A stretch of DNA of 64,000 nt from Nesterenkonia alkaliphila (GTDB taxonomy: Bacteria; Actinomycetota; Actinomycetes; Actinomycetales; Micrococcaceae). The notes below the pieces were generated by a model. It searched no databases. It was not told the DNA's origin and saw nothing but the letters and a program-made list of their open reading frames with translations. Location: the NCBI RefSeq assembly GCF_009758175.1, contig NZ_WRPM01000007.1, positions 62,001 to 126,000 on the forward strand. Reading direction: 5' to 3'. The position numbers and the translations under genes were made by a program. Positions 4,976 through 61,370 of the stretch are shown here, piece by piece; position 1 is the stretch's first letter, and each line of letters begins with the position of its first letter.

Positions 4976-5022
4976 TAGCTACGACGACGTCGCCCCACCA
5001 CTTTCGAAGGAAGTTCACCCAC

Positions 5023-5433
5023 GTGCCCAAGGATTCTCAGCAGCGGCGCTCTGTGCTGGAGACGGTGAAGGCACCGCTGATCTTCTCCTTCGGCCTCGGC
5101 TTCGTGGCCGGTTTTGTGACCTTGATCGTCTCCTCCGGAGGATCAGACAACCCACGGGTGGAGCACGATTCTGCGGGTCTGGACAACCCGATCAACTTAG
5201 CGCTGCTGGCTTTCGGCATCGCCTTTATCGCCAGCCTGCTGATCGTCTCCATGCTGCAGCTGGCCTCCCGGGAGAACCCGGAGGAACTCTCCCGGGGTGC
5301 CGGGGTCAACCGCAACTCCGAGGAGCTCTATCGCCAGCAGGTGGCCCAGCGGCGGGAGAAGGCCCGCCGCGAACAGGCCGAGCAGCAGAAGCCCGAGCAG
5401 GATAGGGGCCCTGGGTCGGAACGAGGAAGCTGA
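5023..5433 (+). CDS. Small two-helix membrane protein, unknown function
   Basis: The 136-residue protein has two hydrophobic helices (about residues 16-38, PLIFSFGLGFVAGFVTLIV, and 60-85, NLALLAFGIAFIASLLIVSML) and a charged, Glu/Arg/Gln-rich C-terminal tail likely to form a cytoplasmic coiled coil. The GTG start has a good ribosome site (GAAGGAAG) at proper distance. No characterised family is recognised. It ends one base before the convergent TetR gene's stop codon. Confidence 0.65.
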   Translation: MPKDSQQRRSVLETVKAPLIFSFGLGFVAGFVTLIVSSGGSDNPRVEHDSAGLDNPINLALLAFGIAFIASLLIVSMLQLASRENPEELSRGAGVNRNSEELYRQQVAQRREKARREQAEQQKPEQDRGPGSERGS

Positions 5434-5434
5434 G

Positions 5435-6022
5435 TCAGGCGGCCCCGGCGGCAGCTCGGCAGATGTCTACGTAGATTTCCGCAAGCTCCTCTGGAGTGTT
5501 CTGGCCCTCGGGGCGAAACCAGCGGGACACGCCCAGGCATGCTGCCGTAATCGCCCGAGCAGCATGGCGCGGATGGGCAGTGCCAAACACTCCTTCGGCG
5601 CAGCCTTCTTCGATCAGTCGGTTCAGCAGCGCTTGTTGTTCATTGCGCGCAGCGATGTGCCGGACCCTGGCTTCCCCCTGCAAGCTCCTAATCTCGCTGA
5701 GCGTGACGAAGGCGATGGCGGAGAATCGGGCGTGGAAGAGGACCATCACCCGGATCAGGCTGTCGAAGCGTTCCAGTACAGGAGTGTCAGGCCGCTCAGC
5801 CGCTGTTCGAGAGGCGGTCAGCAGCGTCTCCATGGCCACTTCGCACAGCGAGTCCAGAATCTCGTGCTTCGAGGTGTAGTAGTGGTACATGCCGGGCACC
5901 GAGAGGCCCGCGGCCCCAGCGATCTGACGGATGGAGGTCCCGTGAAAACCGTTGGCGGCAAAGCACTCTAGAGCCGCCTGGCGCACCTTGCCCAGCGGCA
6001 TTGACTCTGGCAGTTCGCTCAC
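5435..6022 (-). CDS. TetR family repressor of the adjacent catabolic operon
   Basis: The N-terminal helix-turn-helix reads ALECFAANGFHGTSIRQIA followed by GAAGLSVPGMYHYYTSKHEI, a canonical TetR DNA-binding domain. The remaining ~140 residues form the ligand-binding domain. A GTG start at 6022 gives 195 residues and a normal-length N terminus; an ATG at 6061 (208 aa) or one at 6001 is also possible. It is divergent from the acyl-CoA ligase operon, and a 24-bp palindrome lies between them at 6157-6180. By analogy with FadR/PaaR/PfmR-type TetR proteins that sense acyl-CoA esters, it probably represses the operon until a CoA ester accumulates; that is inference. Confidence 0.85.
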   Translation of the reverse strand: MSELPESMPLGKVRQAALECFAANGFHGTSIRQIAGAAGLSVPGMYHYYTSKHEILDSLCEVAMETLLTASRTAAERPDTPVLERFDSLIRVMVLFHARFSAIAFVTLSEIRSLQGEARVRHIAARNEQQALLNRLIEEGCAEGVFGTAHPRHAARAITAACLGVSRWFRPEGQNTPEELAEIYVDICRAAAGAA

Positions 6023-6156
6023 CTGGCAGCTGCCCCACTTCCTTAGTTGCTCACACGGCATGTCTGGCCTGATCTTATCCGGACGCCGAGGAGCCCTGCT
6101 GAGAAATTCTCCGCAAACCTCTTGCGCGAAACAGTGACCTGCCTTACATTCGGTAG

Positions 6157-6180
6157 TACCGAGCGATTGATCGGTCGGTA
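6157..6180. promoter_or_regulatory. Palindromic TetR operator
   Basis: The halves TACCGAGCGAT (6157-6167) and ATCGGTCGGTA (6170-6180) are inverted repeats with one mismatch around a TG centre. The site lies in the divergent gap between the TetR gene and the ligase gene. The arm resembles the TACCGACCG-type sites recalled for TetR regulators of fatty-acid and phenylacetate catabolism. Confidence 0.75.
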
Positions 6181-6232
6181 CCGAGAGGTATCCCAACCCG
6201 CTTCTTGCAAACCGAAGACTATGGAGGTTCTC

Positions 6233-14335: not shown

Positions 14336-15100
14336 CTACTTCTTGGCCTTCTTCTGCCGCTTGTCCATCAGCTCGGCACGCATCCGGTCGCGGAACTCCT
14401 TGGCCGCGATCGCTGAGGCCGAGGTGGGCCGGTTCAGCTGATCGGCCTTCTCCGCGGCAGAGGGCTTAGTCAGCCGTGGTGCCGAACTCTCTGGTGAGCC
14501 GGCGGCGTCGTTGGTTCTGCCGTTGCGTTTGGCGGCCTGCCGGGCACGGTAGGCCCGCACATGGGCGCGGTTGGCGCAGTTGCCGTAGTCGCAGAACAGC
14601 TTGGAGCGGTTCCGGGTGAGGTCCACAATCGCAGCCTCACAGTCATCCCCGCGGCAGATCCGCAGCCGGCTGGTCTCATCTCGGGTGACCAGATGGGCCA
14701 GGGCCGCAGCCACTGTGGCGGTGATCAGATCGCTGATCTGGTCCGAAACCGGGATGGGACGTTCCCGGAAGGCGGTCTCGCCCTCTTCTGCAGGCACCAG
14801 CCGGGTGCCGACCCCCTCCAGCAGGTCGTTGATGAGGGCCAGTTCCTCCGGCTTGGTGATCGGGGCCGACTGCCAGACCCTGTGCAGCGCCTCACGCAGC
14901 TCGCGCACCTTCTCGAGCTGCTTGCGGGTAGCCTTGCTGCTGGGCCACTCCAGCTCAGGCTCGCGCTGGGCCAGAAAGGCCTTCAGACCTTCTACGGAGT
15001 CCAGGACATCCGGGGTGGTTTTGGCGCTCTTGAGCCCTCCGGCCGTGTTGATCAGATCAGCGGCCGATATCAGAGCACGATTGACTTCTGCGTTGAACAT
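14336..15100 (-). CDS. CGNR zinc-finger protein (ABATE domain)
   Basis: The 254-residue protein ends with a CGNR zinc finger: CRGDDCEAAIVD, then KLFCDYGNCANR and HVRAYRARQA. Four cysteines can bind zinc, and the N-terminal ~130 residues match the helical ABATE (putative ligand-binding) region of this family. Members are thought to be transcriptional regulators with unknown ligands. A low-complexity Lys/Arg-rich tail follows. It is convergent with the quinone reductase gene, 10 bases away. An AGGAG site precedes the ATG. The 271-base gap to the next gene holds no clear gene. Confidence 0.82.
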   Translation of the reverse strand: MFNAEVNRALISAADLINTAGGLKSAKTTPDVLDSVEGLKAFLAQREPELEWPSSKATRKQLEKVRELREALHRVWQSAPITKPEELALINDLLEGVGTRLVPAEEGETAFRERPIPVSDQISDLITATVAAALAHLVTRDETSRLRICRGDDCEAAIVDLTRNRSKLFCDYGNCANRAHVRAYRARQAAKRNGRTNDAAGSPESSAPRLTKPSAAEKADQLNRPTSASAIAAKEFRDRMRAELMDKRQKKAKK

Positions 15101-17537: not shown

Positions 17538-17604
17538 CCGAGGTGCCCTTTCTGTGACCCAGTGTGGTGCCGCGTCGTCGTACCCCGCCATATCTGAAGC
17601 ATAC

Positions 17605-18686: not shown

Positions 18687-20276
18687 TCACCGCGCTTCGG
18701 AGTCGCGCAGCACAGCGGCAGCGGCGTTGAAGCCGGGCATCCCATGCGCGCCGCCGCCGGGCGGTGCGGCCGCAGAACACACGTAGATCCCCTCCGGGCC
18801 TACGGAGTAGGGTCTGCGCAGCTGTGCCGGCCCGGCGAAGATCTGGCTAGGGGTGGCCAGCCCACCGCTGAGGCTGCCTCCCACCAGATTGGGGTTCCAG
18901 GTCTCCAGCTCTGCGGTGCCCCAGACCTTTCGCTGAAGCACCGCCTCGCGGAACTGCGGGGCGAACCTGCTGATCTCCGCCTCGATGAGCTTGGCCGCCC
19001 GCGCCGTCCCGGAGGCATCAAGCCCGAAGGGAACATGGGCATAGGCCCAGCAGAGGGTCCGGTGGTCCGGGGTTCGGGTCTCATCGGCGGCGCTGGGCTG
19101 AGCCAGCAGCACATAGGGCCGCCCGGGCAGCACCCCCCGGTTTGCGGCCGCCTCACTGGCGGTGATCTGCTCGGCGCTGCCGCCCAGGTGCACGGTCCCG
19201 GCGCGGGCCAGTTCCGGCTGCTCCCAGGGGATGGGCCCGTCCACCAGGTAGTCGATCTTCACCACACCGGGGCCGTAGCTCCAACCCGCCATCCGGCTCC
19301 GTGCCCGCTCGGTGAGCCGCAGGCCCTCAAGCCGGAGGAGCTGCGCCGGGGTCAGATCCAGTACGACGACGTCAGCCACCTCATCACCAAAGCGACGCCG
19401 GTGCCCCCGGCTGCGGTGGTGGAGCCCGTCGATCCGGTAGCCGCGGCGTTTCAGGCTCTTCCGCACCCCTTGCCGCAGCCCGGGCAGTGGGACCTCCTTG
19501 AGGCCCGCCACGGTGAAGTCGGTGACGACCTGCCCCCCATGTGCCTCGAGCTCCGCCACCAGGGCGTTGACCAGTTGTTGGGTGCCGCCGCGGATCACGG
19601 GCCAGCCGCCGGCATGGCCGGCTGCCGCAAAGAGCACTCCGAAGGCAGAGGTCAGAGGATGGCTCAGCGGCCCCGTGGAATGTGCCGCCAGTCCGGCAAA
19701 CAGTGCGCGGGCCCGGGCAGTCCGGAAGCTGCGCATCAGGTTCCGGGCCGGCATCGATCCATGTGCACCGATCTGCAGCAACGATGCCGCGCGCCGCGCC
19801 GCCCCGCGCAGCGCATCTGCCGGCCGGTCGGCACTGCCGATGCCTTCCAGCAGGCCCCGGGGGCTGAGGAAAGTCTGCCGCACCGCATCCCAGTTGTGCA
19901 CCAGGGGGCCGATGACCCAGCGCCAGAGCTCGCCGTCGGGGCCCAACTCAGCTGCGGTCTGCTCCAGGCTGCGGTGCAGCAGGGCCGGGGCTGAGTCAGG
20001 GATGTTCTCCAGGGGGTGTCCGGCAGGGATCGGCGGCTGCGCGTACTCCAGGGAATCGGCGGGCAGCAGCGCCTCATAGGCGGGGGAGGCAAAGGGCAGC
20101 ACACTTGCCCCGAGGTCACTGATCAGCCCGGGTCCAAACACCTCAGCGGAGCGGGCCGCGCCGCCGGGGGCCTCGGCCGACTCATAGACGGTGACCTGCC
20201 AACCAGCGCGGGCCAGCCGGCAGGCAGCAGTCAGGCCGTTGGGCCCCGAGCCCACCACCGCCGCGTGCAATGCCAT
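18687..20276 (-). CDS. FAD-dependent oxidoreductase (phytoene desaturase-like)
   Basis: The 529-residue protein begins with AAVVGSGPNGLTAACRLARAG, an FAD-binding Rossmann motif, followed by VYESAEAPGGAARS, as in the CrtI/RetSat amine-oxidoreductase superfamily. The C terminus has GIYVCSAAAPPGGGAHGMPGF, the second FAD-contact motif of this group. The N-terminal ATG at 20276 puts the Rossmann motif at residue 8, as expected; an ATG at 20300 adds eight residues. Members desaturate or isomerise carotenoids or act on other lipids, but no carotenoid genes are nearby, so the substrate is unknown. Confidence 0.82.
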   Translation of the reverse strand: MALHAAVVGSGPNGLTAACRLARAGWQVTVYESAEAPGGAARSAEVFGPGLISDLGASVLPFASPAYEALLPADSLEYAQPPIPAGHPLENIPDSAPALLHRSLEQTAAELGPDGELWRWVIGPLVHNWDAVRQTFLSPRGLLEGIGSADRPADALRGAARRAASLLQIGAHGSMPARNLMRSFRTARARALFAGLAAHSTGPLSHPLTSAFGVLFAAAGHAGGWPVIRGGTQQLVNALVAELEAHGGQVVTDFTVAGLKEVPLPGLRQGVRKSLKRRGYRIDGLHHRSRGHRRRFGDEVADVVVLDLTPAQLLRLEGLRLTERARSRMAGWSYGPGVVKIDYLVDGPIPWEQPELARAGTVHLGGSAEQITASEAAANRGVLPGRPYVLLAQPSAADETRTPDHRTLCWAYAHVPFGLDASGTARAAKLIEAEISRFAPQFREAVLQRKVWGTAELETWNPNLVGGSLSGGLATPSQIFAGPAQLRRPYSVGPEGIYVCSAAAPPGGGAHGMPGFNAAAAVLRDSEAR

Positions 20277-22212: not shown

Positions 22213-22336
22213 GGGACCCAGGCAGAGGCGTTGGCGACTGTGCGGGCCACCTCAGGGCATGGCGCTAGGGCTGCGCGGCGGCTCCCGCAGCCGCCGAAGG
22301 CGAGACGGGCGGCGTCGTGGGCTGTCGTGCCGCTGT

Positions 22337-22378: not shown

Positions 22379-25114
22379 GTGTCAGGCAAGAAGTTGGTCA
22401 TTGTTGAGTCCCCGGCCAAGTCCCGTTCCATCGCCAAGTACCTGGGCGATGACTTCATCGTGGACGCCTCCGCGGGCCATATCCGTGACCTCCCGCAGCC
22501 CTCGGATCTGCCCGCGGACATGAAGAAGGGCCCCTTCGGCAAGTTCGCAGTGGACCCGGACAACGGGTTCGAGCCCTACTACGTGGTCTCCGAGTCCAAG
22601 AAGTCCAAGGTCCGTGAGCTGAAGAGGCAGCTCAAGGAAGCCGACGAGCTCTACCTGGCCACCGATGCCGATCGCGAGGGTGAGGCCATCGCCTGGCACC
22701 TCTATGAGGTGCTCAAGCCCAAGGTCCCCACCTACCGGCTCAGCTTCACTGAGATCACCAAAGAGGCCATCACCCGGGCCATGGAGAACCCCCGGGAGAT
22801 CGACAATGACCTGGTGGACGCCCAGGAGACCCGGCGCATCCTGGACCGGCTCTACGGCTACGAGATCTCCCCGGTGCTCTGGCGCAAGGTCGGCAAGGGG
22901 CTCTCGGCCGGCCGTGTGCAGTCGGTGGCCACCCGGATGGTGGTGGACCGCGAGCGTGAGCGGATGGCGTTCATTCCCGCCGGCTACTGGGATCTGACCG
23001 GCAGCTTCGCCACCGAATCCCAGGAGACCTTCACCGCTAAGCTGCATTCGGTCGACGGGCAGCGGATTGCTGCCGGCTCCGACTTCACGGACAAAGGTGA
23101 GCTGAAAGAGTCCCGCCGCGGCGTCGTCGTTCTCGATAAGGAGGATGCAGAGTCGCTGGCTGAAGGGCTCACCGGTGCCGCCTTCAGTGTGGACTCAGTG
23201 GAGGACAAGCCGTACTCGCGCCGCCCGCAGCCGCCGTTCATCACCTCCACCCTGCAGCAGGATGCGGCCCGCCGGCTGCGCTTCTCCTCCCGCACCACGA
23301 TGCAGGTGGCGCAGCGGCTGTATGAGAACGGCTACATCACCTATATGCGTACCGACTCCACCACGCTCTCCAGCCAGGCGCTCAACGCCGCGCGCAAACA
23401 GGCCAGTGAGCTCTACGGGGCCGAGTCGGTGCCCGAGAAGCCCCGGTTCTACGCCCGGCGCAATGAGACCGCCCAGGAAGCCCATGAGGCGATCCGCCCG
23501 GCCGGGGACTCCTTCCGCACCCCGCGCCAGGTCAAGAACGAACTCACCGCTGACGAGTTCAAGCTCTACGAGCTGATCTGGAAGCGCACGGTGGCCTCCC
23601 AGATGGCCGATGCCAAGGGCTTCACCGCCAGTGTGCGGCTGACCGGGCAGGCATCCGACGGGCGGAAGGCCACCTTTGGGGCCTCCGGCACGGTGATCAC
23701 CTTCCCCGGGTTCCTGGCCGCCTATGAGGAGATCAGAGACAACGACGACGCCGGCTCCAGTGACAAACCGGAGAAGGCCTCGGATAAGCGGCTGCCCAAG
23801 CTGGCTGAGGGCGACGCGCTGACCGGTGAGGACATCGAGGCCAAGGGCCACGAGACCTCCCCACCGGCCCGCTACACCGAGGCCACCATCGTGGCCGAAC
23901 TGGAGAAGCGGGAGATCGGCCGGCCCTCCACCTATGCGCCCACCATCTCAGTGATCATGGACCGCGGTTATGTCACCAAGCGCGGCTCCGCCCTGGTGCC
24001 ATCCTGGACGGCATTCAGTGTGATCAGTCTGCTGGAGGAACATTTCGGCCGCTACGTGGACTATGACTTCACCGCCCGGCTGGAGGATGATCTGGACCAG
24101 ATCGCCCGCGGTGAGATCGAGCGTGAGGCCTGGCTGCAGGGCTTCTACCTGGGCGCCTCCAGCGCCGAGGAGGGCCTGAAGAACGTGGTGGAGAACCTCG
24201 GGGAGATCGATGCCCGGGCCGTGAACACCATTGAGGTGACCGAGGGCGTGGAGGTCCGGGTAGGCCGCTACGGTCCCTACCTGGAGCGCCCCAACCCCGA
24301 TGGCGAGGCCGATGAGAACGGTGAGATCAAACTCGACCGGGCCAATATCCCTGCCGAGCTGGCCCCCGACGAGCTGACCAAGGCTAAGGCCGAGGAGCTT
24401 TTCGAACAGGCTTCCCTCTCCGGGCGGGTGCTGGGCACTGACCCGGAGACCGGCCGGGAGATCGTGGCGAAGGACGGCCGCTACGGCCCCTACGTCGCCG
24501 AGGTGATTCCGGAGCCCACAGAGGAGGAGATCCAGGCCCATCTGGACGCTCAGCCCACCGAGTACTACAAGAACGGCAAGCCCAAGCCCAAGAAGAAGCC
24601 GCCCAAGCCCAAGCCGCGCACCGGCAGCCTCTTCAAGTCGATGTCCCTGGAGACGGTGACTCTCGAGGATGCCCTCAAGCTGCTCTCGCTGCCCCGCACC
24701 GTGGGCACTGGTGAGGACGGCGAGGAGATCCTGGCGCTCAACGGGCGGTTCGGGCCCTATCTGAAGAAGGGCACTGACACTCGTCCGCTGCAGGATGAGG
24801 AGCAGCTGTTCAGCATCACCGAGGAGGAGGCGCGGAAGATCTACGCCCAGCCCAAGCAGCGCGGACGGGGGGCGGCCAAGCCGCCGCTTGCGGAGTTCGG
24901 CACCGACCCGATCACCGAGAAGCCGGTAGTGGTCAAGGAGGGCAGGTTCGGCCCATACATCACCGACGGGCAGACCAATGTCACCGTGCCCCGTTCGGTG
25001 ACCCTGGAGCAGCTGACCAAGGAACAGGCCTTCTCCCTGCTGGCGGAGAAGCGTGCCAAGGGGCCCGCTCCCAAGAAGTCCGGCGGGCGGCGCAAGACCG
25101 CGTCGAAGGCATAG
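22379..25114 (+). CDS. topA: DNA topoisomerase I (type IA)
   Basis: The 911-residue enzyme relaxes negative supercoils. The Toprim domain opens with [19 protein letters not shown] and contains [13 protein letters not shown] near residue 98. The catalytic tyrosine is Tyr322 in YMRTDST, and PSTYAPTI near 515 is also conserved. The C terminus lacks cysteine zinc fingers and instead has several repeated Lys-rich modules ([32 protein letters not shown]) ending in a basic tail, as in actinobacterial TopA. The GTG start has AAGGAG upstream. It sits behind a 16-bp tandem repeat array. Confidence 0.96.
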
Positions 25115-26194: not shown

Positions 26195-27008
26195 GCATCA
26201 CCTCCCGCGAATCCCGGTGGCGCTGAGTTCGTCATCGGTCTATCCCCTGGGCGTGGCGGAGACCTTCTCCACGGCTGAGGACCTCGGCTATGACGGGGTG
26301 GAAATCATGGTCACCCACCGTGCTGAGACTCAGCAGGCCAGTGTGCTCAACGAGCATTCCTGGCGGTTCGGCCTGCCGGTGCTCTCCATCCACGCACCCA
26401 CCCTGCTGTTGACCCAGCAGGTTTGGGGCTCCGCGGAGGACAAGCTCTGGAAGTCAGCCGAGCTGGCACGGGGAGTGGAGTGCGGCGTCGTCGTAGCCCA
26501 TCCGCCCTTCCGCTGGCAGGGCAACTATGCCGTACGGTTCCCCGAACTGGTGGATGAGATCGAGGAGCGCACCGGCGTGGTGATCGCGGTGGAGAATATG
26601 TACCCCTGGCGGGCCGGCGGGCGTGAGGCCAAGATGTACTTACCGCACTGGAACCCGGTGCCCTTCGGCTACCGCCATGTGACCTGGGACTTCTCCCATG
26701 CTGCCACCGCGGAGGACGATTCCTACGAGAACATGAAAGCCCTGGGCTCCCGGCTGCGGCATGTGCACCTGACCGACGGTTGGTCCAACGGGTTCAAGGA
26801 TGACCACCTGGTACCGGGCCACGGCAACCAGCGGGTTCAGGAGGCCATGCAGCTGATCGCCGACCCGGAGTTCGGTGACGGCGGTTTCCAGGGTGCGGTG
26901 GCTGTGGAGGTATCCACCCGTGCCGCCCGCAATAAGGTCGGCGAGCGGGAGCGGATGCTCGCGGAGTCCCTGGCCTTCGCCCGCGAGCACCTGGGCCAGC
27001 AGGGCTGA
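26181..27008 (+). CDS. Sugar phosphate isomerase/epimerase (xylose isomerase-like TIM barrel)
   Basis: The 275-residue protein fits the AP-endonuclease-2/xylose-isomerase-like TIM barrel. GYDGVEIMV is near residue 35, the metal ligand glutamate is in AVENMYPW near 136, and RLRHVHLTDG near 195 and AVEVSTRA near 245 supply the remaining ligands. The substrate is not known. It starts inside the last codons of the Ppx gene and is likely co-expressed with it, as in other actinobacteria. Confidence 0.78.
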   Translation: MPVPEHHLPRIPVALSSSSVYPLGVAETFSTAEDLGYDGVEIMVTHRAETQQASVLNEHSWRFGLPVLSIHAPTLLLTQQVWGSAEDKLWKSAELARGVECGVVVAHPPFRWQGNYAVRFPELVDEIEERTGVVIAVENMYPWRAGGREAKMYLPHWNPVPFGYRHVTWDFSHAATAEDDSYENMKALGSRLRHVHLTDGWSNGFKDDHLVPGHGNQRVQEAMQLIADPEFGDGGFQGAVAVEVSTRAARNKVGERERMLAESLAFAREHLGQQG

Positions 27009-35684: not shown

Positions 35685-35691
35685 TGCAGCC

Positions 35692-35970: not shown

Positions 35971-35972
35971 TC

Positions 35973-36287: not shown

Positions 36288-36352
36288 GGTCCCGGCCCGC
36301 CAGCTTGTAGGGTGGTGGGATATCGCTCGCGCTGGTTGAGGGAGGGCCTGCT

Positions 36353-39502: not shown

Positions 39503-40344
39503 CCGGACCGAAGATTGCGATGCTGGGCCTGGGTTCCATGAACGGGGCCATTCTGACGGGGCTGCTGAGCTCCGGGGTGAGCCCTGAGCAGGTCGTGGCA
39601 ACCTCCCGCTCCTCGGAGTCTGCGCAGCGACGCTCGCAGCACTACGGTGTGCAGGTATTGGCTGAGGAGAACGACGACGCCGCCAACCGCACCGCAGCTG
39701 CCCAGGCTGAGATCGTGTTTTTGGGCGTGAAACCCTATCAGATCACCGATCTGTGTGCCGGTATCAAGGACGCGCTCAAGCCCGGTGCGGTAGTGGTCTC
39801 GGTGGCTGCTGCGGTGACCCTGGAGATGATGGAAGCCGCGCTCGCAGAGGGCCAGCCGGTGATCCGCACTATGCCCAACACTCCCCTCTCCGTAGGAGCC
39901 GGCGTGGTGGGGCTCAGCGCGGGCACCCACACCAGCCAGCAGCAGGTAGAACTGGTGGCCGAGCTGCTCGGCGCCTCAGGCTCGGTGCATGTGATCCCGG
40001 AGGAGCAGATCGATGCGCTCTCCGCCATCGCCGGCTCCGGGCCCGCCTATGCCTTCTACCTCGCCGAGCAGATGGCCGCAGCGGGGGCTGAACTGGGCCT
40101 GGATCCCGAGCTGGCGGCAGGCCTGGCCGCTGAGACGATCTACGGTGCCGGAAAGATGCTTCTGGAAAACCAGGGGAAGGCCGATGCCGCCCAGCTGCGC
40201 CGAAACGTCACCAGCCCCAATGGCACTACTGAGCAGGCGATCAGCACCTTCGATGCCGCAGATATGGGCCAGACCATCCGGGCCGGCGCCGCGGCGGCCG
40301 CGGCCCGTGCTGCCGAGATCACCGGCCAGCTGAGGGGCCAGTAG
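39499..40344 (+). CDS. proC: Pyrroline-5-carboxylate reductase
   Basis: The 281-residue enzyme reduces pyrroline-5-carboxylate to proline with NAD(P)H. It opens with IAMLGLGSMNGAILTGLL (cofactor loop) and has IRTMPNTPLSVGAGV near 113 and AIAGSGPAYAF near 175, the last being the ProC signature. AAGGAGG within the end of hsdR precedes the ATG, which overlaps the hsdR stop (ATGA). A housekeeping gene is thus translationally coupled to a restriction gene. Its 3' end overlaps the convergent glutaredoxin gene by 26 bases. Proline is also a compatible solute. Confidence 0.94.
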   Translation: MTGPKIAMLGLGSMNGAILTGLLSSGVSPEQVVATSRSSESAQRRSQHYGVQVLAEENDDAANRTAAAQAEIVFLGVKPYQITDLCAGIKDALKPGAVVVSVAAAVTLEMMEAALAEGQPVIRTMPNTPLSVGAGVVGLSAGTHTSQQQVELVAELLGASGSVHVIPEEQIDALSAIAGSGPAYAFYLAEQMAAAGAELGLDPELAAGLAAETIYGAGKMLLENQGKADAAQLRRNVTSPNGTTEQAISTFDAADMGQTIRAGAAAAAARAAEITGQLRGQ

Positions 40345-40588
40345 CCTCCGCCAGCAGCCGGCGCAGCCGGGCTGGGTCGAACTTCCAGAAGTCCCGGACG
40401 GTGCCGTTGATGCGCAGCACCGGGATCTCCTCGGCGAATTGGGTGAGGAGGGCGGCGTCGTTCTCTATATTGGTTTCGGTGTAGCTCAGGCCAAACTCGG
40501 CGCAGGCAGCCTCCGTGGTGGCCAGGGCCTCGGCGCACAGGTGGCAGCCGGGCTTGGTGAGCACCTCAACGTGGACATGATCAGACAT
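40319..40588 (-). CDS. Glutaredoxin-like thiol protein
   Basis: The 89-residue protein has the strand-loop motif VEVLTKPGCHLC (CxxC near residue 14), then a helix, IPVLRI and a C-terminal helix, a compact glutaredoxin-like fold (DUF836/YruB type). It probably acts in thiol-disulfide exchange. GGAGG precedes the ATG at 40588; an ATG at 40603 is less likely. Its 3' end runs into the proC 3' end. Confidence 0.8.
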   Translation of the reverse strand: MSDHVHVEVLTKPGCHLCAEALATTEAACAEFGLSYTETNIENDAALLTQFAEEIPVLRINGTVRDFWKFDPARLRRLLAEATGPSAGR

Positions 40589-42126: not shown

Positions 42127-43317
42127 ATGATGAATTCAGTGAGCGCTCTGATCAGAATCGATAACGCCTCCATGCCCTACCCGTGGGGCGCAGCGGGCGG
42201 CATCTCCGCGCTGCTGGGACGCGAACCCAGCGGCGGGCCGGAGGCTGAGCTGTGGCTCGGCGCGCATCCGAAATCGCCCAGCCGCGTGCTCAATGAGCAG
42301 TCCGAATGGGACGATCTGCACCAGTGGGAGCAGCAGACCGGCCAGCGGCTGCCCTTCCTGCTGAAGATCCTCGACGCCGCCGCTCCGCTCTCGCTGCAGG
42401 CCCACCCCTCTGCCCAGCAGGCGGTACAGGGCTTTGAGCGTGAGCAGAGTGCGGGCATTCCGATCGATGCCCCGCGCCGGAACTACCGCGACCCCCGGCC
42501 CAAACCGGAGATGATTGTTGCGCTGACCGACGGGTTCGAGGCGCTCTGTGGATTCCGTGACCCGGCAGAGACCGTGGAGCTGCTGGAGCAGGTGGCTCAG
42601 GGTGCAGGCTCCTCCGGGGCTCTGCTGCGGACCTGGGCCTATACCCTGGCGGAGCAGGGGATCGCGCGCACTGTGCGCTGGCTGCTCGGCGAGGATGCGG
42701 AGATTCCTCTGCTGGTGGACCAGCTGGGAGCCGCGGCCGAACGCCACCCTGAGCAGCTGGGACTGGCCTCCCGGCTGCTGGCTCAGTACCCGGGGGACCC
42801 GGGGGCGGCAGTGGCCCTGATGCTCAACTACGAGGTGCTGGCCGCCGGGGAAGCCCTATGGCTGCCCGCAGGGAACATCCACGCCTACCTGCACGGGACT
42901 GGAATTGAACTGATGGGCCCCAGCGACAATGTGCTGCGTGGCGGGCTGACCGGAAAACACATTGATGTTCCCGAGCTGCTGAACGTCCTGGACATCAGTT
43001 TCGGTGCCCCGGAACGGCTGCAGCCTGAGCCGCAGCAGGGGGCGCTGCGCAGCTACCGCACCGAGGCGGGACCGGATGACCGCGGGGCACCCTTCGAGCT
43101 GCTGGAGATCACGGGCGATGCCGAGATCAGCACCCAGAGCCCCAGTGTGGTTGCGGTGATGCAGGGAGAGTTCACACTCAGCACAGACAACGACGACGCC
43201 GCGGCACAGACTGCCAGCCGCGGCCAGTTCCTCCTGCACACCAGCCCGGGTCCGCTGGCATTCCACGGGGCCGGCCAGGCGTTCCTGGCCACCGCCAGGC
43301 GTGCGAGTTCCCCCTAG
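42127..43317 (+). CDS. manA: Mannose-6-phosphate isomerase, type I
   Basis: The 396-residue zinc enzyme interconverts mannose-6-phosphate and fructose-6-phosphate. Zinc ligands lie in LQAHPS near residue 97, PEMIVAL near 128, and GNIHAYLHG near 252. The type I signature SDNVLRGGLTGKHIDV is near 273. The start is the first of two adjacent ATG codons at 42127, with AGGATGAG upstream. It supplies mannose for cell-wall glycans. It ends tail to tail with ktrA, with a 4-base overlap. Confidence 0.92.
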   Translation: MMNSVSALIRIDNASMPYPWGAAGGISALLGREPSGGPEAELWLGAHPKSPSRVLNEQSEWDDLHQWEQQTGQRLPFLLKILDAAAPLSLQAHPSAQQAVQGFEREQSAGIPIDAPRRNYRDPRPKPEMIVALTDGFEALCGFRDPAETVELLEQVAQGAGSSGALLRTWAYTLAEQGIARTVRWLLGEDAEIPLLVDQLGAAAERHPEQLGLASRLLAQYPGDPGAAVALMLNYEVLAAGEALWLPAGNIHAYLHGTGIELMGPSDNVLRGGLTGKHIDVPELLNVLDISFGAPERLQPEPQQGALRSYRTEAGPDDRGAPFELLEITGDAEISTQSPSVVAVMQGEFTLSTDNDDAAAQTASRGQFLLHTSPGPLAFHGAGQAFLATARRASSP

Positions 43318-48062: not shown

Positions 48063-49445
48063 ATGACATCACGCATCCTGCCCGGCTTCGGCTGGCGCCT
48101 GCACGGAGACGGCAAGACCATCCGACCCGGCGCTGTGGTCGCCCCCGATGAGCGACTGAGCTGGTTCCAGACCACCGGGGTGGGCATGCAGCATGTGGTG
48201 GCCATGTTCGGGGCGACCTTCCTAGTGCCGGTGATTACCGGTTTCCCGCCCTCGACCACCCTGCTGTTCTCCGGGATCGGCACCCTGCTGTTCCTGATCA
48301 TCACCGCCGGGCGGGTACCCAGCTACCTGGGCTCATCCTTCGCCTTCCTCGCCCCGGTGGGCGCGGCCACCGCACAATATGGGATGTCCGGGGCGCTGGG
48401 CGGGATCTTCCTGGCCGGGCTGGCCCTGACCATCCTCGGCGTCGTCGTACACTTCGCCGGAGCGCGCTGGATCCAGCGGCTGATGCCCCCGGTGGTGACC
48501 GGCTCCATCGTCGCGCTGATCGGGCTGAACCTGGCCCCGGCGGCCTGGAACAACGTCAACGCCGCCCCAGCGACTGCCACGGTGACCATTGTGGCGATGC
48601 TGGTGGCCGGGGTGCTCTTCCGCGGCATGCTCGGCCGGCTCTCGATCCTGGTCGGTGTGGTGATCGGCTATGCCTTCGCGGCAGTCCGCGGTGAGGTGGA
48701 GTACTCCGAAATCGGCGAGGCCGGTTGGGTGGGTCTGCCCGAGTTCACGGCCCCGAGCTTCCACCTTGGGGTGGTCGCGCTGTTCATTCCGGTGGTGCTG
48801 GTGCTGGTGGCCGAGAACGTCGGGCATGTGAAATCGGTGGCCCTGATGACCAAGCGGGACCTGGACCCGGTGACCGGGCGGGCCCTGATCGCTGATGGGG
48901 CAGCCACTATGCTCGCCGGGGCCGGCGGAGGCTCCGGCACCACCACCTACGCGGAGAACATCGGGGTGATGGCCTCCTCGAAGGTCTATTCCACCGCCGC
49001 CTACTGGGTGGCCGGGCTCTTCGCGATCCTGCTGGCACTGCTGCCGAAGTTCGGCGCCCTGGTCAACACCGTCCCCGAAGGCGTGCTGGGCGGGGCCGGC
49101 ACCGTGCTCTACGGGATGATCGGCATCCTCGGGGTGCGTATCTGGGTGCAGAACTCGGTGGACTTCTCCAACCCGGTCAACCTCGCAGTGGCCGGGGTGC
49201 CGCTGATCATCGCGATCGCGGACTACACCATGGTTTTCGGCCAGATCATCTTCACCGGTATCGCCATCGGCAGCTTCGCCGCACTGGCCATCCACCATGG
49301 GATGAGCGCGATCGCCCGCTGGCGCGGTACCGACGCCGGCTATGCGGACACTGACCCCGAGTCCATCGCCACCCCGATCAACCGCCGGGATATCGACCAC
49401 CTGGAATCAGGCGGCAGCCTCGACGACGACCTCTCCGGCAGATAG
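48063..49445 (+). CDS. NCS2 nucleobase:cation symporter (uracil/xanthine permease)
   Basis: The 460-residue, ~14-helix transporter has the NCS2 motifs QHVVAMFGATFLVP near residue 43, the substrate-binding helix region AENVGHVKS near 252, and AGAGGGSGTTTYAENIGVM near 285. It imports uracil or a purine with H+ or Na+. The ATG at 48063 is supported by TAAGGT at 48049-48054, 8 nt upstream (leaderless-like). An in-frame ATG at 48042 is an alternative. It is divergent from ectA. Confidence 0.9.
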   Translation: MTSRILPGFGWRLHGDGKTIRPGAVVAPDERLSWFQTTGVGMQHVVAMFGATFLVPVITGFPPSTTLLFSGIGTLLFLIITAGRVPSYLGSSFAFLAPVGAATAQYGMSGALGGIFLAGLALTILGVVVHFAGARWIQRLMPPVVTGSIVALIGLNLAPAAWNNVNAAPATATVTIVAMLVAGVLFRGMLGRLSILVGVVIGYAFAAVRGEVEYSEIGEAGWVGLPEFTAPSFHLGVVALFIPVVLVLVAENVGHVKSVALMTKRDLDPVTGRALIADGAATMLAGAGGGSGTTTYAENIGVMASSKVYSTAAYWVAGLFAILLALLPKFGALVNTVPEGVLGGAGTVLYGMIGILGVRIWVQNSVDFSNPVNLAVAGVPLIIAIADYTMVFGQIIFTGIAIGSFAALAIHHGMSAIARWRGTDAGYADTDPESIATPINRRDIDHLESGGSLDDDLSGR

Positions 49446-49457: not shown

Positions 49458-50597
49458 TCAGTGCCCGGCGTGTGCCACCGGCGAGCCGCCGTGCAGCACC
49501 GCGGTGACTTCCAAACCCGCGGAGAGTACGACGACGTCTGCCCGCGCCCCTGCCCCCAGGTGGCCAATGCTGGGCTCACCCAGCATTCGGGCCGGGTTCA
49601 GCGTGACTGCCGCCAGCGCCTGCTCCAGGGGGACCCCGGCCTGCTGCACGGCGTGCTGCACGGCATGCTGGAGGGTCAGCGTGGAGCCGGCCACCGGGCC
49701 CAGGGTGCCATCCTCTTCAAGGATCCGGGCGGTTCCGCCGCTGACCTGCACCTCCAGCTGGCCCAACCGGTAGTGTCCGTCCCCGGCGCCAGCGGCCGCC
49801 ATCGCATCAGAGACTAAGAGCGCCCGCCCCGGAGCCTGGGTGAAGGTGCTGCGCAGCACCGCCGGGTGCAGGTGCACCCCATCTGCTATCAGCTCGAGGA
49901 ACGCTTCTGGGTGCTCAAGAAGTGCAGGAACCGGACCGGGCGCCCGGTGATCGAAGCGGCGCATCGCGTTGAACAGATGGGTCGCCGCAGCTGCTCCGGC
50001 CTGCAGAGCCTGCCGAGTCTGCTCATAACTGGCGGCGGTGTGGCCCAGGGCAGCCACCGCCCCGGCGGCCCGGAGTTTGCCTACGGCCTCGATCCCACCC
50101 GGCAGCTCCGGGGCCAAGGTGACCATCCTGAGGGTTCCGGTCTGCAGAAGGAAGGCCAGGTCCTCGGTCTTCGGGCTCTGCAGCAGCTGTGGATCATGGG
50201 CCCCGTGATACTCCCGGCTCAGCCAGGGGCCCTCCAGGTGGATGCCGGCCAGCTCCCCGGAATCCGTCAGCGGGCGCAGCTGCTCAATCTGGGCGCCAAG
50301 GGCAGCCACGGTATCGGTGACCAGGGAAGCCAGCAGCGTCGTCGTTCCATGTGCCCGATGCGTGGCGATAGCGGTGCGCGCCGCCTCAGGGCCCGCCGAG
50401 AAGTTGGCCCCACCGCCTCCGTGGCAGTGCACATCAATGAACCCGGGGCTCAGCAGCTGGTCATCAGCCAGCTGCAGGTCCGGAACCTGCGGGGCTGGGC
50501 CTGCACCGGACTGGGTGATCAGCTCACCCGCAGTCCGCAGCCAGTACGGTCCGATGCTCCCGTCGGGTCTCAGTGCCCGTTGCGCAGCGATCAGCAT
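49458..50597 (-). CDS. nagA: N-acetylglucosamine-6-phosphate deacetylase
   Basis: The 379-residue amidohydrolase has the metal-binding DVHCHGGGGANFS near residue 56, the catalytic glutamate in HLEGPWLS near 122, GHTAAS near 186, THLFNAM near 208, and ALLVSDAMAAAG near 267. It yields glucosamine-6-phosphate for glycolysis or cell-wall recycling. No nagB or PTS gene is adjacent. It is convergent with the NCS2 permease (12-base gap). Confidence 0.9.
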   Translation of the reverse strand: MLIAAQRALRPDGSIGPYWLRTAGELITQSGAGPAPQVPDLQLADDQLLSPGFIDVHCHGGGGANFSAGPEAARTAIATHRAHGTTTLLASLVTDTVAALGAQIEQLRPLTDSGELAGIHLEGPWLSREYHGAHDPQLLQSPKTEDLAFLLQTGTLRMVTLAPELPGGIEAVGKLRAAGAVAALGHTAASYEQTRQALQAGAAAATHLFNAMRRFDHRAPGPVPALLEHPEAFLELIADGVHLHPAVLRSTFTQAPGRALLVSDAMAAAGAGDGHYRLGQLEVQVSGGTARILEEDGTLGPVAGSTLTLQHAVQHAVQQAGVPLEQALAAVTLNPARMLGEPSIGHLGAGARADVVVLSAGLEVTAVLHGGSPVAHAGH

Positions 50598-51091: not shown

Positions 51092-52567
51092 TCAGCCGCG
51101 CAGCATAGTGGCGGCCAAGGCCAGCAGCTGCTCCTCGGTGCCAGGCTTGCCGATCAGCTGCACCGACCAGCTCAACCCGTCCTGCGAGGTGTGAACCGGC
51201 ACATTGAGCGCCGGCAGGCCAAGCACATTGACCACTGAGCTGTACGGGGTGAAGCGGCACTGTTCGATGTAGTTCTGTTCCGGATCCAAGCCGGCGAACC
51301 AACCGATCTCCGGCGGCGCAGTGGCCAGCATAGGAGTCAGCAGCATATCCCAAGGGCCAAAGATCGCCAGCGCATGGTCTGAGAAGTCCTGAAGCGAGGC
51401 GATCGCTCCCGCAGTCTGCTCCGGCGGCCGGGAGCGGGCCAGCTCCACAAAGTACTGGGTCAGTGGCTCCATCTGCTCGAGCTGATGCTCGGCGAACTCC
51501 AGCTCACCCAGCCGCGCAGTCCAGAGTGCCTGGAAATCCTGGTGGTAGTTCTGCACCCAGAACCGTTCCGGACCGGTGCAGTCCACCGAGCCCTGGATAT
51601 GGTGGCCTGCCCTCGCCAGAGCGGAGATCCCCTTCTCCACGGCCAGCAGCGCGTCCTCGGCCAGCACAATGTCCAGATCAGGGGAGAAGGGCGACTCCGT
51701 GGTCACCCCCACACTCAGCGGCTCGGTGCTTGAAGCCAGGGCCCGATGCACCGTCTGCTGGGCGCTGCCACTGCGCTCGCCCCGCTGACCAGCCATTACG
51801 TCAAAGAGCAGGGCGGCATCCTCGGCGGTACTGGCGATGGGGCCGGAGGTGAGCAGATTGCGTACTGAGGGGGCGGCGTCGTCGTCCGGGATCCGTCCCC
51901 GCCCGGGTTTCAGGCCTACCAGTCCGCAGGCCGCAGCAGGGATCCGCACCGAACCTCCGCCGTCATTGCCCGGGGCGAAGGGCAAGATCCCCGCGGCCAC
52001 GGCAGTGGCACTGCCCCCGGTGGAGCCGCCTGAGGTCCGGCTGAGATCCAGGGGATTGCGAGCCGGTTCGCCCAGCTGATTCTCCGAATAACAGGGCAGG
52101 CCGAACTCCGGGACCTGGGTCTTGCCCACGCTGATCGCCCCGGACCGGTGCACTCTGCGGGCCAGCGGGGCATCCTTGGCCGGCAACACGGCCGGGGCGG
52201 AGCGAGTGCCGAAGGTCAGCGGGAGCCCGGCCACCGGCACCAGGTCCTTGAAGGCGGTGGGCAGACCGAGCAGGGGTGCGGCAGCTGTCAGCTGCTGAGG
52301 GGTGGCTGTCTTCGCCAAGACCTTCAGTGTGGCGTCCTGCTGTTCGGCCCGCGCCAGCGCAAACTCGGGGTCCAGGTTCAAGAAGGCGCCGAGTCCGGGC
52401 ATGGTGACCGCGGCGGTCAGCGCAGTGGTGGTCAGCTCCACGCAGGAGACCTCCCCGCGGAGCACCGAGTCTCGCCACTGGGTGGCGGTGGCTGCTCGGA
52501 AGTCAGCCATGGTCAGGTCAGTGGTGTGTTCGGGCTTGGGCTCCGGTGCCGGAGAGACCTGATCCAT
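51092..52567 (-). CDS. Amidase (amidase-signature family)
   Basis: The 491-residue enzyme has the Ser-cisSer-Lys triad: Lys in PTAFKDLVPV near residue 92, and SRTSGGSTGGSATAVAAG near 175, ending with NDGGGSVRIPAA near 202. The fold equals that of GatA, but gatB and gatC are absent, so a general amidase acting on small amides is more likely. The C-terminal half is typical. The ATG at 52567 opens with an extra 18 polar residues. Confidence 0.87.
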   Translation of the reverse strand: MDQVSPAPEPKPEHTTDLTMADFRAATATQWRDSVLRGEVSCVELTTTALTAAVTMPGLGAFLNLDPEFALARAEQQDATLKVLAKTATPQQLTAAAPLLGLPTAFKDLVPVAGLPLTFGTRSAPAVLPAKDAPLARRVHRSGAISVGKTQVPEFGLPCYSENQLGEPARNPLDLSRTSGGSTGGSATAVAAGILPFAPGNDGGGSVRIPAAACGLVGLKPGRGRIPDDDAAPSVRNLLTSGPIASTAEDAALLFDVMAGQRGERSGSAQQTVHRALASSTEPLSVGVTTESPFSPDLDIVLAEDALLAVEKGISALARAGHHIQGSVDCTGPERFWVQNYHQDFQALWTARLGELEFAEHQLEQMEPLTQYFVELARSRPPEQTAGAIASLQDFSDHALAIFGPWDMLLTPMLATAPPEIGWFAGLDPEQNYIEQCRFTPYSSVVNVLGLPALNVPVHTSQDGLSWSVQLIGKPGTEEQLLALAATMLRG

Positions 52568-53030: not shown

Positions 53031-53941
53031 AGTACGCCTATCTGGGCCCGGCCGGGACCTTCACCGAGGCGGCTCTGCTGAAAATGCCCGGTGGTGCCTC
53101 CGCTGAGCGGCTGCCTGCTGCCAGTGTGCTCTCTGCCCTGGCCATGGTGGAGAACGACGACGCCCACGCCGCCGTGGTGCCCATCGAGAACTCCGTAGAA
53201 GGTGGGGTCACCGCCACTTTGGATGCCGTTTCGGTGGCGCATCATCTGCATATCACCGCCGAGGCCCTGGTGCCGATCACGTTTGTGCTGGCTTCGGCCG
53301 AACCCATGGAGCTCGCCGAGATCCGTTCGGTAACCACCCACTCGCATGCCTGGGCGCAGGTGCGGAAATGGGCGCAGACCACAGTTCCGTATGCGGAGTA
53401 CCGGCCGGCCTCCTCCACGGCGGCCGGTGCACACGGACTGCGCAATGATCCGCCGGTGGCTGATGCCGCGATCTGCGCGCCTCTGGTGGCTGAGCAGCTT
53501 GGCCTGCATGTGGTTGACCGCCAGATTGAGGATGTGCCCGGGGCGGTCACCCGGTTCGTGCTGGCAGCCAAGCCCGGTCCAGTGCCTGAGCCGACCGGGG
53601 CGGATAAGACCACGGTGATGATTCCGCTGCCGGAGGACCATCCGGGTGGGCTGATGGAGATACTGGAGCACTTCGCCACCAATGGGGTGAATATGAGCCG
53701 GATCGAGTCCCGGCCCACGGGCTTTGGGATGGGGGACTACTATTTCTCCATCGATCTGGAGGGGCATATCGCTGAGGCGCGGATCGCTGATGCGCTGGCC
53801 GGGATCCACCGGATCTCGCCGAAGGTGCGGTTCCTGGGGTCGTATCCCCGGGCTGATGGCAAGCCGCAGCAGAAGGGCCCGGAGGTCTCCGAGGAGGCCT
53901 TCGCCGCCGCGGCGGCCTGGATAGAGTCGCTGCGCGGCTGA
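53027..53941 (+). CDS. pheA: Prephenate dehydratase
   Basis: The 304-residue enzyme makes phenylpyruvate for phenylalanine. It starts KYAYLGPAGTFTEAAL, has PIENSVEGGVTATLD near residue 47, and ends in an ACT regulatory domain with GVNMSRIESRP near 225, the Phe-sensing ESRP motif. The GTG start overlaps the rhodanese stop. A strong hairpin follows. Confidence 0.94.
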   Translation: MKYAYLGPAGTFTEAALLKMPGGASAERLPAASVLSALAMVENDDAHAAVVPIENSVEGGVTATLDAVSVAHHLHITAEALVPITFVLASAEPMELAEIRSVTTHSHAWAQVRKWAQTTVPYAEYRPASSTAAGAHGLRNDPPVADAAICAPLVAEQLGLHVVDRQIEDVPGAVTRFVLAAKPGPVPEPTGADKTTVMIPLPEDHPGGLMEILEHFATNGVNMSRIESRPTGFGMGDYYFSIDLEGHIAEARIADALAGIHRISPKVRFLGSYPRADGKPQQKGPEVSEEAFAAAAAWIESLRG

Positions 53942-59360: not shown

Positions 59361-60656
59361 GTGATTGACATCAAGGACCTCATCGCCGAACCCGAGAAGT
59401 ACCGAGCCAGCCAGCGCGCCCGCGGCGCTGATGAGTCTGCGGTGGATGCGGTGATTGCCGCATCCGAGTCGCGGGCTGCGGCGATCACCCGGTTCGAGAC
59501 CCTCCGGGCGGAGCAGAAGGCCTTCGGCAAGAAGGTCGCTCAGGCTCAGGGCGAGCAGAAGCAGGCCCTGCTGGCGGAGGTCAAGCAGCTGGCCGCTGAC
59601 GTCAAGGCCGCAGAGACAGAGGCCGACGCCGCCCAGGGCCAGTTGGACACCCTCACCAGGTCCTTTCCAAACCTCATCCACCAGGGGGTGCCGGCTGGTG
59701 GCGAGGATGATTTCGTCACCCTGCGGCACGAGGGTCAACCCCGGGACTTCACCGCTGAGGGCTTCGAGCCCAAGGATCACCTGGAGCTGGCCGAGGCGCT
59801 TGGTGCCGTGGACATGGAGCGCGGCGCCAAGGTCTCCGGGGCCCGGTTCTACTTCCTCAAGGGCATCGGTGCCCGGCTGGAGCTGGCCATGATGCAGCTG
59901 GGCATGGACCAGGCGCTCGAGGCAGGCTTCACCCCGATGATCACCCCCACCCTGGTGCGCCCGGAGACCATGAACGGCACTGGTTTCGATGTGGAGCACG
60001 ACGACGAGATCTACCGTCTGGAGCGTGACGACCTCTACCTGGTGGGCACCTCCGAGGTGGCCCTGGCCGGCTATCACGCCGAGGAGATCCTCGACCTGAG
60101 CGCCGGCCCCCAGCGCTACGCCGGCTGGTCCACTTGTTACCGGCGCGAGGCGGGCTCGCACGGCAAAGACACTAAAGGGATCATCCGGGTCCACCAGTTC
60201 AACAAACTGGAGATGTTTGTCTACTGCTCCGCGGAGGACTCAGTGGCCGAGCATGAGCGGCTGCTGGCCTGGGAGGAGCAGATGCTGGCCAAGATGGAGC
60301 TGCCCTACCGGGTCATCGACACTGCTGCCGGTGATCTGGGGCTCTCGGCAGCCCGCAAGTTCGACTGCGAGGCCTGGGTCCCCACCCAGGGCACTTACCG
60401 GGAGCTGACCTCTACCTCGGACACCACCACCTTCCAGGCCAGGCGGCTGAACATCCGGGAGCGTACGGTCAAGGAAGACGGCTCCAAGGGTCCCACCCGT
60501 CCTTTGGCCACACTCAATGGCACCTTGGCTACTACCCGGTGGATCGTGGCCATTCTGGAGAACCATCAGCAGGCTGACGGCTCGGTGCGAGTGCCTCAGG
60601 CGCTGCGCCCCTACCTGGGCGGCCTTGAAGTTATTGAACCGGTGTCCAGCAAGTAA
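59361..60656 (+). CDS. serS: Seryl-tRNA synthetase
   Basis: The 431-residue enzyme has an N-terminal coiled-coil arm (about residues 30-105) and class II motifs: motif 2 [20 protein letters not shown] near 258 and motif 3 [16 protein letters not shown] near 388. The GTG at 59361 (MIDIKDL) matches the family start; TAGTGT at 59348-59353 ends 7 nt upstream, suggesting leaderless transcription. A GTG at 59355 is possible. Confidence 0.95.
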
Positions 60657-60732
60657 TCAGGTACTGCTCACCTTGGCTCGATAGTCAAGAGTGTAGGAAC
60701 TCTGAACGTATGCCGGTAAGGGTAGCCACAGC

Positions 60733-60761
60733 TTGCTGGTGGGAGTTGTTCTGAGTAACTA
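60733..60761 (+). promoter_or_regulatory. Candidate dps promoter
   Basis: TTGCTG (60733-60738), a 17-base spacer and TAACTA (60756-60761) form a plausible sigma-A-like promoter. AAAGGAG at 60808-60814 is the ribosome site. AGAGT/ACTCT at 60688-60703 is a short hairpin after serS. Confidence 0.5.
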
Positions 60762-60819
60762 AGATTTGGCTGTGACGCCGACAGAGCGCCGGCGCAACAT
60801 TGACTCCAAAGGAGTGTGG

Positions 60820-61317
60820 ATGATGAGCAAGACCGCCGACTACACCGTTCCCGGCCTTGGCAAGGACTCCGGCGAGGAGATTGCCGGCCTGCTGCAGGAC
60901 CGCCTGCACGCCCTCAATGACCTGCATCTGGTGCTTAAGCATGTGCACTGGAACGTGGTGGGCCCCAACTTTATCGCCGTGCACGAGATGCTTGATCCGC
61001 AGACCACACAGGTCCGCGAGTTCGCCGATGAGATCGCCGAGCGCATCGCCACCCTGGGCACTGCGCCCTCGGGGCTCTCCGGCGAGTTGGTTTCCGAGCG
61101 CAGCTGGCAGGACTACCCGCTGCGCAAGGCCTCTGTGGAGGACCACCTGGCTGAGCTGGACAAGGTCTACACCGGTCTGCTGGAGGATCACCGCCAGGTG
61201 CTCAGCAAGGTGGGCAATATCGACCCGATCACCGAGGACATCCTCATCGGTCAGGTCAAGGACCTCGAGCTCTTCCAGTGGTTCATCCGCAGCCACCTGG
61301 AGCGCGCCTCCGCCTAA
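60820..61317 (+). CDS. dps: Dps/ferritin-like DNA-binding stress protein
   Basis: The 165-residue protein has the Dps ferroxidase ligands: HLVLKHVHWNVVG, AVHEMLDPQ and REFADEIAERIATLG, split between two helices. Dps oxidises Fe(II) with peroxide and protects DNA. The N-terminal residues before SKTADYTVPG are short. Two adjacent ATG codons at 60820 and 60823 are both possible. A strong terminator follows at 61336-61370. Confidence 0.93.
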   Translation: MMSKTADYTVPGLGKDSGEEIAGLLQDRLHALNDLHLVLKHVHWNVVGPNFIAVHEMLDPQTTQVREFADEIAERIATLGTAPSGLSGELVSERSWQDYPLRKASVEDHLAELDKVYTGLLEDHRQVLSKVGNIDPITEDILIGQVKDLELFQWFIRSHLERASA

Positions 61318-61335
61318 TCACCTGAGTACGACGAC

Positions 61336-61370
61336 GCCCGGGTCAAGTGGGTTCGCCCACTGGCCCGGGC
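61336..61370 (+). terminator. Rho-independent terminator after dps
   Basis: GCCCGGG...AGTGGG-TTCG-CCCACT...CCCGGGC forms a long stem with a stable TTCG tetraloop, followed by ATCTTT. It begins 18 bases after the dps stop and follows a copy of TACGACGACG (61327-61336). Confidence 0.88.

Follow-up and report, generated by a model that had tools for sequence, protein, structure and literature searches.

The window analysed here, 64,000 nucleotides of Nesterenkonia alkaliphila DNA (positions 62001-126000 of contig C71 in the 3.32-Mb draft source genome, G000), carries a short dispersed motif of about A-S-N-ACGACG[A/C]CG[C/T]C. We read this motif as a self tag similar to a DNA uptake sequence (DUS), and give that reading a probability of about one half. 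The motif occurs in an excess that goes beyond codon usage, is limited to a clade, is found in a differing version in another genus, is balanced between the strands, is depleted in acquired-looking DNA, prefers gene ends and intergenic sequence, and excludes close neighbours on the same strand. Uptake, a receptor, a drive that spreads the sites, and one-directional entry of one strand as the source of the exclusion are what we infer from this behaviour.

An original prediction, made from the letters of the window, had called a 12-mer over-represented on both strands and listed 15 copies of the 9-mer ACGACGACG. All 15 copies are present, where dinucleotide shuffles give 0.37; only the plus-strand positions needed correction, being low by one because the start of the 12-mer had been given. 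The 12-mer WACGACGACGYC has 11 matches in the window, where 0.02 are expected, and the whole 3.32-Mb genome holds 222 copies of it versus 12 for the same pattern reversed, which served as the control. Detailed analysis of sites covered 1.13 Mb of the source genome, including the window. The 228 copies of ACGACGACG in this sequence were compared with Markov expectations of 4.1 (order 3), 20.7 (order 4), 61.6 (order 5), and 115 (order 6), the high orders already holding sub-words of the motif itself. The presence of an over-represented dispersed word in this genome is confirmed.

A word of this kind could be the by-product of protein sequence or codon choice, such as acidic Asp-Asp-Ala runs, or of slippage in triplet repeats. 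Genes were called in the 1.13 Mb with a simple codon model, giving 842 genes; the caller was home-made and covered 80% of the sequence, so "intergenic" takes in missed genes and gene starts are approximate. Synonymous codons were then resampled while preserving the protein and the context of the next base. Under this null, ACGACGACG was found 188 times in genes versus 30.6 expected, and ACGACGACGCC 139 times versus 10.3. The excess holds in all six reading frames, including the sense Asp-Asp frame (102 versus 26.9), the sense Thr-Thr-Thr frame (19 versus 0.1), and, as an antisense example, a frame with 45 found versus 3.5. Control words were also counted (CAGCAGCAG 255/185, GAGGAGGAG 53/58, GGTGGTGGT 96/92.5, and GCCGCCGCC 196/189, found/expected), repeats of CAG, GAG, GGT, GAT, and GCC stood at 0.8- to 1.4-fold, and TCGTCGTCG, which has sub-words in common with the motif, reached 2.2-fold (53 versus 24). 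A scan against the same null with no prior choice of word returned sub-words of the motif as the top 8-mer and 10-mer in both the source genome and its sister G005. The motif does not behave as a pure (ACG)n microsatellite either, as its excess depends on the ends of the word, and ACGACGCCGCC and ACGACGACGCC are equally frequent. Site density in uncalled stretches is no lower than in genes (324 versus 289 per Mb), and the three window copies described as intergenic (4981, 43190, and 61328) do fall outside called genes. What favours a coding origin is that 102 of the 228 copies of ACGACGACG lie in the sense Asp-Asp frame. This explanation is refuted as the main cause, and we regard it as hardly credible, although codons do contribute to which sites are sense. 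The earlier claim that protein sequence does not explain the word is therefore upheld by a null that preserves the protein.

The unit itself is wider than the 12-mer, directional, and non-palindromic. It was fitted with fixed priors, since unconstrained expectation-maximisation drifted into codon periodicity. The word ACGACGACGCC stands 13-fold over the codon null, and most single-base changes remove most of that excess: changes at bases 4, 5, 6, 8, 9, and 11 reduce it to between 0.1- and 2.5-fold. The word accepts C at base 7 (9.8-fold) and T at base 10 (10.3-fold), and it partly tolerates changes at bases 1 to 3 as well as G or T at base 7 (1.3- to 6.6-fold). Upstream, A is found at -3 in 53-65% of sites and G or C at -2 in 78-84%, a preference that is alike in intergenic, antisense, and other sense-frame sites when each class is taken separately. 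These non-repeat ends, the A at -3 and the CC that follows, belong to the motif. The excess of the predicted 12-mer thus stands, but it is not the best consensus, as the seventh base can be C with nearly the same effect as A, and the A three bases upstream has to be included. The pattern ACGACG[A/C]CG[C/T]C has 334 distinct sites in the 1.13 Mb (296 per Mb, about one per 3 kb), 160 of them on the plus strand and 174 on the minus. The 17 sites that fit in the window comprise 12 of the 15 copies of ACGACGACG and five sites with C at base 7.

No orientation skew was seen along contigs, tested contig by contig because the high-count genomes are drafts. KOPS-type segregation sequences (FtsK-orienting polar sequences) with leading-strand polarity were rejected as a candidate on the same per-contig test, which gave no clear skew on large draft contigs. 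Over its first 200 kb, G055, from another genus of the family, seemed to divide 2 to 11 between the strands, but this fades with wider patterns (58 and 65, or 30 and 42 with the upstream A included). Within 1 kb, the source genome has 18 same-strand pairs where local jittering gives 42, and 70 opposite-strand pairs, made up of 41 convergent (27 expected) and 29 divergent (27 expected). Six convergent pairs are less than 120 bp apart, two of them intergenic and hairpin-like. Per-strand spacing lacks short gaps, with a 5th percentile of about 0.9-1.0 kb versus 0.3 kb expected. The exclusion recurs in four other high-count genomes, whose pooled site lists (partial for three of the four) give 13 same-strand and 38 opposite-strand pairs below 1 kb (p 6e-4); in one of the 38, from G002, the two sites overlap as a palindrome at a distance of 5 bp. 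On the plus strand of contig C1 of G005 alone, there are 2 close pairs versus 9.3 expected. Control words in the source genome do the opposite and cluster on the same strand.

Consecutive sites in the source genome also alternate between strands, in 216 of 311 steps; when the strands are permuted the count is 161 +/- 8, and the observed value was not reached in any of 2000 permutations. On the ten contigs of at least 40 kb, shifting one strand by 3-5 kb lowers the alternations from 177 of 253 to 156. Shifts of at least 1.5 kb never reached the observed alternation in 1000 trials per range, and shifts of 0.5-1.5 kb reached it 22 times. With the wider pattern ACGACGNCG, low-count G011 tends towards alternation (103/176, reached by 14 of 2000 permutations) and G055 does so weakly (69/119, reached by 105 of 2000), while G015 shows neither alternation (150/292) nor exclusion below 1 kb (122 same, 115 opposite).

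Sites are not spread evenly over the genome. In 5-kb bins, the sixth with the lowest GC has 122 sites per Mb and the remainder 267-378; by gene typicality, the least typical fifth has 155 per Mb and the other fifths 261-412. The depletion that had been suggested from the window is upheld over the 1.13 Mb for low-GC and atypical DNA. Two window segments had been described as acquired-looking and empty. Both lack ACGACGACG, but one site of the wider motif (31242) lies inside the second. The 31.8-39.5 kb portion codes type I restriction-modification subunits, and that at 6-14 kb codes an AMP-binding enzyme, an acyl-CoA dehydrogenase, a transporter, and two alcohol-dehydrogenase-like proteins. These thin segments, which may have been acquired, accord with the low density in atypical DNA genome-wide. 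In 34.5 kb of short intergenic gaps there are 26 sites (755 per Mb versus 289 per Mb in called genes), and within genes 141 of 285 matches fall in the outer two quintiles (49.5%, p 0.0013) versus 36-43% for five control words, both results resting on our own gene calls with their approximate starts. With the codon test passed, all six frames in use, and acquired-looking DNA depleted, the idea of a DNA-level signal of the core genome is well supported.

This signal is not genus-wide. The count of the 12-mer is 92-222 in eight of 30 Nesterenkonia genomes (222 in the source), 54-64 in three, and 11-34 in nineteen, so that high counts are confined to close relatives. The eleven genomes closest by TopA (83-100% identity) include all eight high-count genomes, two of the intermediate ones, and one low-count genome, G015. 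The third intermediate genome, G009, has no TopA match and stands outside this grouping. No more distant genome with a TopA match exceeds 34 copies; G014, where TopA is in pieces of 79-86%, has 15. In that genome, which is 62% complete, TopA is split into four matches at C1:408060-410794, perhaps through sequencing errors. Among named species, TopA of the source is 89% identical to that of N. muleiensis, 80% to N. cremea, and 78% to N. halophila. No genome as high as the source was found in a sample of 295 genomes from the family or 149 from the phylum.

Other lineages carry other versions of the word. ACGACG[A/C]CG[C/T]C is 11.6-fold over the codon null in the source genome and 9.2-fold in G005, compared with 1.4- to 2.6-fold in G015, G011, G055, and G048. 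In 200 kb of G055, TACGACG[G/T]CG is instead 30-fold in excess (18 found versus about 0.6), and ACGACGNCG-N-AGC is 12.6-fold; the top word of G015 is CGACGTCG. The words of the source and of G055 are built on a common core, which points to a shared ACGACGNCG with lineage-specific ends, as seen in one clade and one other genus (200 kb), with G015 as an exception.

Of the four functions originally offered for the word (recombination, segregation, uptake, or a nucleoid protein site), uptake fits best. A surface receptor of the natural-transformation machinery, consisting of ComEC and a Tad-type pilus, would bind A-S-N-ACGACG[A/C]CG[C/T]C and so favour the uptake of fragments bearing the tag. Recombination of these fragments would create and maintain sites, which would accumulate over the core genome wherever proteins tolerate them, and changes in the receptor would give related species their own versions. 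In a cell with a single membrane, entry may start at the tag and take in one strand in a single direction, in which case a further tag on that strand would be superfluous within about 1 kb. ComEC and TadE were each found in 29 of the 30 Nesterenkonia genomes, and natural transformation with Tad/Flp pili is described for another member of the family, Micrococcus luteus (PMC4322843).

The motif resembles known systems in several respects. Uptake sequences show no orientation skew (PMC1939737), those of Pasteurellaceae are biased to gene ends (PMC2346458), inverted hairpin-like pairs occur in Haemophilus influenzae (PMC7811141), and dialects of Neisseriaceae differ between species on one core (PMC3630211). 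Like the DUS of Neisseriaceae, the motif is a short, dispersed, non-palindromic and strand-balanced word found in and between genes, with inverted pairs and apparent dialects (PMC3630211, PMC1939737). It differs in its actinobacterial host, its unrelated sequence, its same-strand exclusion within 1 kb, and its density, at about 300 per Mb lower than that of DUS, for which 1,543-3,770 copies per genome are given. With the uptake signal sequence (USS) of Pasteurellaceae it shares dispersal on both strands, gene-end bias, and convergent hairpin pairs (PMC2346458, PMC7811141), but it is GC-rich, its host is of another phylum, and the family relative M. luteus uses Tad/Flp pili.

Several results weigh against the uptake reading. 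Low-count species have ComEC and TadE just as often as high-count ones, so these genes do not tell the two groups apart, and G015 groups by TopA with the high-count species despite its low count. A weaker general excess of ACGACGNCG (1.7- to 2.8-fold) is found in four genomes without the full motif, and low-count G011 also has CGACGACG as its top 8-mer, at only 2.4-fold and with other ends. In alignment to G005, 23 of 43 sites still fit and identity per base is 0.892 in the motif and 0.786 in the flanks, but the control word CAGCAGCAG did equally well (0.925 and 0.802), so this conservation is not specific. Turnover is fast: of window sites aligned to topA loci, N. muleiensis keeps 2/7, N. cremea 0/5, and N. 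halophila 0/6. The topA locus of N. muleiensis, a high-count species, contains 7 sites of its own over 22 kb. Alternation beyond short range is strong only in the source genome, the four relatives pooled giving 141/263 (p 0.27), and for this reason only the same-strand exclusion within 1 kb is treated as replicated. That exclusion is itself an addition to known uptake sequences, because orientation-blind uptake would not produce it; in the available part of PMC1939737 it is not described, and site orientation is without effect on uptake. Among the listed matches of the open-licence literature, nothing on point was found for competence in Nesterenkonia.

Alternatively, the motif may be the binding site of a protein that structures or segregates the chromosome, such as a nucleoid protein, SMC, or a partition factor, needing dispersed oriented sites every few kb. 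A non-palindromic site of 11 to 14 bp, per-strand spacing without short gaps, the alternating orientation in the source genome, and the tie to the core genome would all suit such a protein. The lack of strand skew along contigs speaks against the strand-skewed form of segregation signal, and counts that vary up to 20-fold between congeners would be unusual for a housekeeping factor; versions that differ between genera and the failure of alternation to replicate also argue against it. On balance we consider this explanation unlikely, but if it were correct, the site would be unusually long and fast-changing for a chromosome-organising site, with copies that avoid neighbours on the same strand. 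The motif could also be the trace of a mutational or mobile process, for example site-biased repair, a modification enzyme, or a short insertion sequence or repeat family. Fast turnover between species and some convergent hairpin pairs are compatible with this, but it is distinctly improbable given that the flanks share little sequence outside the motif and that sites lie within genes such as topA and use all frames. Families of the repetitive extragenic palindrome (REP) type, like the bacterial interspersed mosaic element (BIME), are palindromic and intergenic, which the motif is not. HIP1 of cyanobacteria is likewise an abundant dispersed word, of disputed function and varying between species, but unlike the motif it is an 8-bp palindrome.

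A Chi-type signal for the recombinational helicase-nuclease of the host, an AdnAB-like enzyme, would also be a directional, dispersed word of the core genome, as Chi of E. coli is, and redundancy of same-strand sites within about 1 kb could reflect an enzyme that reads one strand. Two neighbouring large open reading frames with PDDEXK_1 nuclease domains lie at C30:66371-70857 of the source genome, which we take to be a likely AdnAB pair. None of the 30 Nesterenkonia genomes gave a match to the RecC family (AddAB was not searched), which speaks against a cognate RecBCD, and RecC presence does not separate high- from low-count species. In 350 kb of E. coli K-12 used as a control, Chi is split 56 to 14 between strands in a 300-kb block (with 6 and 8 in the remaining 50 kb) and shows no exclusion, with 18 same-strand close pairs versus 12.8 +/- 3.4 expected. 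Known Chi sites have 5-8 bases, and the motif is longer than any of these; its version also changes strongly within one family. Because of the balanced strands, the lack of a RecC match, and the different behaviour of E. coli Chi, recombination of this type is disfavoured and in our estimate very improbable.

Motif sites in the window. Unless stated otherwise, sites match ACGACGMCGYC.
Feature	Position	Strand	Basis
Motif site	1452..1462	+	pattern match
Motif site, intergenic	4981..4991	+	ACGACGACG copy and pattern match
Motif site	14501..14511	-	pattern match
ACGACGACG copy, full motif not fitted	17573..17581	-	9-mer match
Motif site, antisense within gene	19363..19373	+	ACGACGACG copy and pattern match
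Motif site upstream of topA, outside called genes	22308..22318	-	pattern match
Motif site in topA, antisense	23120..23130	-	ACGACGACG copy; fitting site kept in N. muleiensis
Motif site in topA, sense	23742..23752	+	ACGACGACG copy; fitting site kept in N. muleiensis
Motif site	26484..26494	-	ACGACGACG copy and pattern match
Motif site, sole one between 26.5 and 39.6 kb	31242..31252	+	pattern match
Motif site, two overlapping registers counted once	39671..39684	+	ACGACGACG copy and pattern match
Motif site	40451..40461	-	pattern match
Motif site outside called genes	43190..43200	+	ACGACGACG copy and pattern match
Motif site	48438..48448	-	ACGACGACG copy and pattern match
Motif site close to 3' end of minus-strand gene	49528..49538	+	ACGACGACG copy and pattern match
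ACGACGACG copy, full motif not fitted	50337..50345	-	9-mer match
Motif site, two overlapping registers counted once	51872..51885	-	ACGACGACG copy and pattern match
Motif site close to gene start	53154..53164	+	ACGACGACG copy and pattern match
ACGACGACG copy, full motif not fitted	59998..60006	+	9-mer match
Motif site, intergenic, 11 bp past gene end	61328..61338	+	ACGACGACG copy and pattern match

Some further features were noted alongside these sites. The type I restriction-modification island of the window (31849-39499, with HsdM and HsdR) is lower in GC and free of motif sites, and small open reading frames lie between its genes at 35.0-36.3 kb. Another word, CGNTGANC, shows a weaker excess over the codon null: 1.6- to 2.0-fold in the analysed stretches of G000, G005, G015, and G011, and only 1.1-fold in G055 and G048. 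It is present in five frames of the source genome, where it reaches between 1.3- and 2.8-fold. Also over-represented in the 1.13 Mb is CCACAGTG, with 192 copies, of which 175 are in genes versus 81 expected from codons, mostly in two frames. Finally, in C21:1-20000 of the source genome, a 30-bp stretch (CAGTCTATCGAGG...) recurs from position 1249 onward in 24 identical copies, with a spacing of 64 bp among the ten that were listed; this looks like a candidate CRISPR array.

To our knowledge, Neisseriaceae and Pasteurellaceae, both proteobacterial, are the only families for which abundant self-specific uptake tags are established. No actinobacterial uptake sequence was found in the open-licence literature; a search there for natural transformation of M. 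luteus together with an uptake sequence gave only that of Neisseria, in the accessible portion of a review, and among the matches listed for the word itself none concerned bacterial genome motifs. We tentatively suggest that the motif may be the first uptake sequence of a Gram-positive, single-membrane host, with Micrococcaceae dialects of a tag that is built on the core ACGACGNCG and recognised by a receptor of the Tad-pilus or ComEA type, and with one-directional strand entry keeping the tags of each strand evenly spaced. If the uptake reading is true, an actinobacterial tag with dialects would represent an independent origin, and the cause of tag accumulation could be tested in a Tad-pilus system. 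The word would then provide a sequence bait for the DNA receptor and would mark species barriers to gene exchange in Micrococcaceae.

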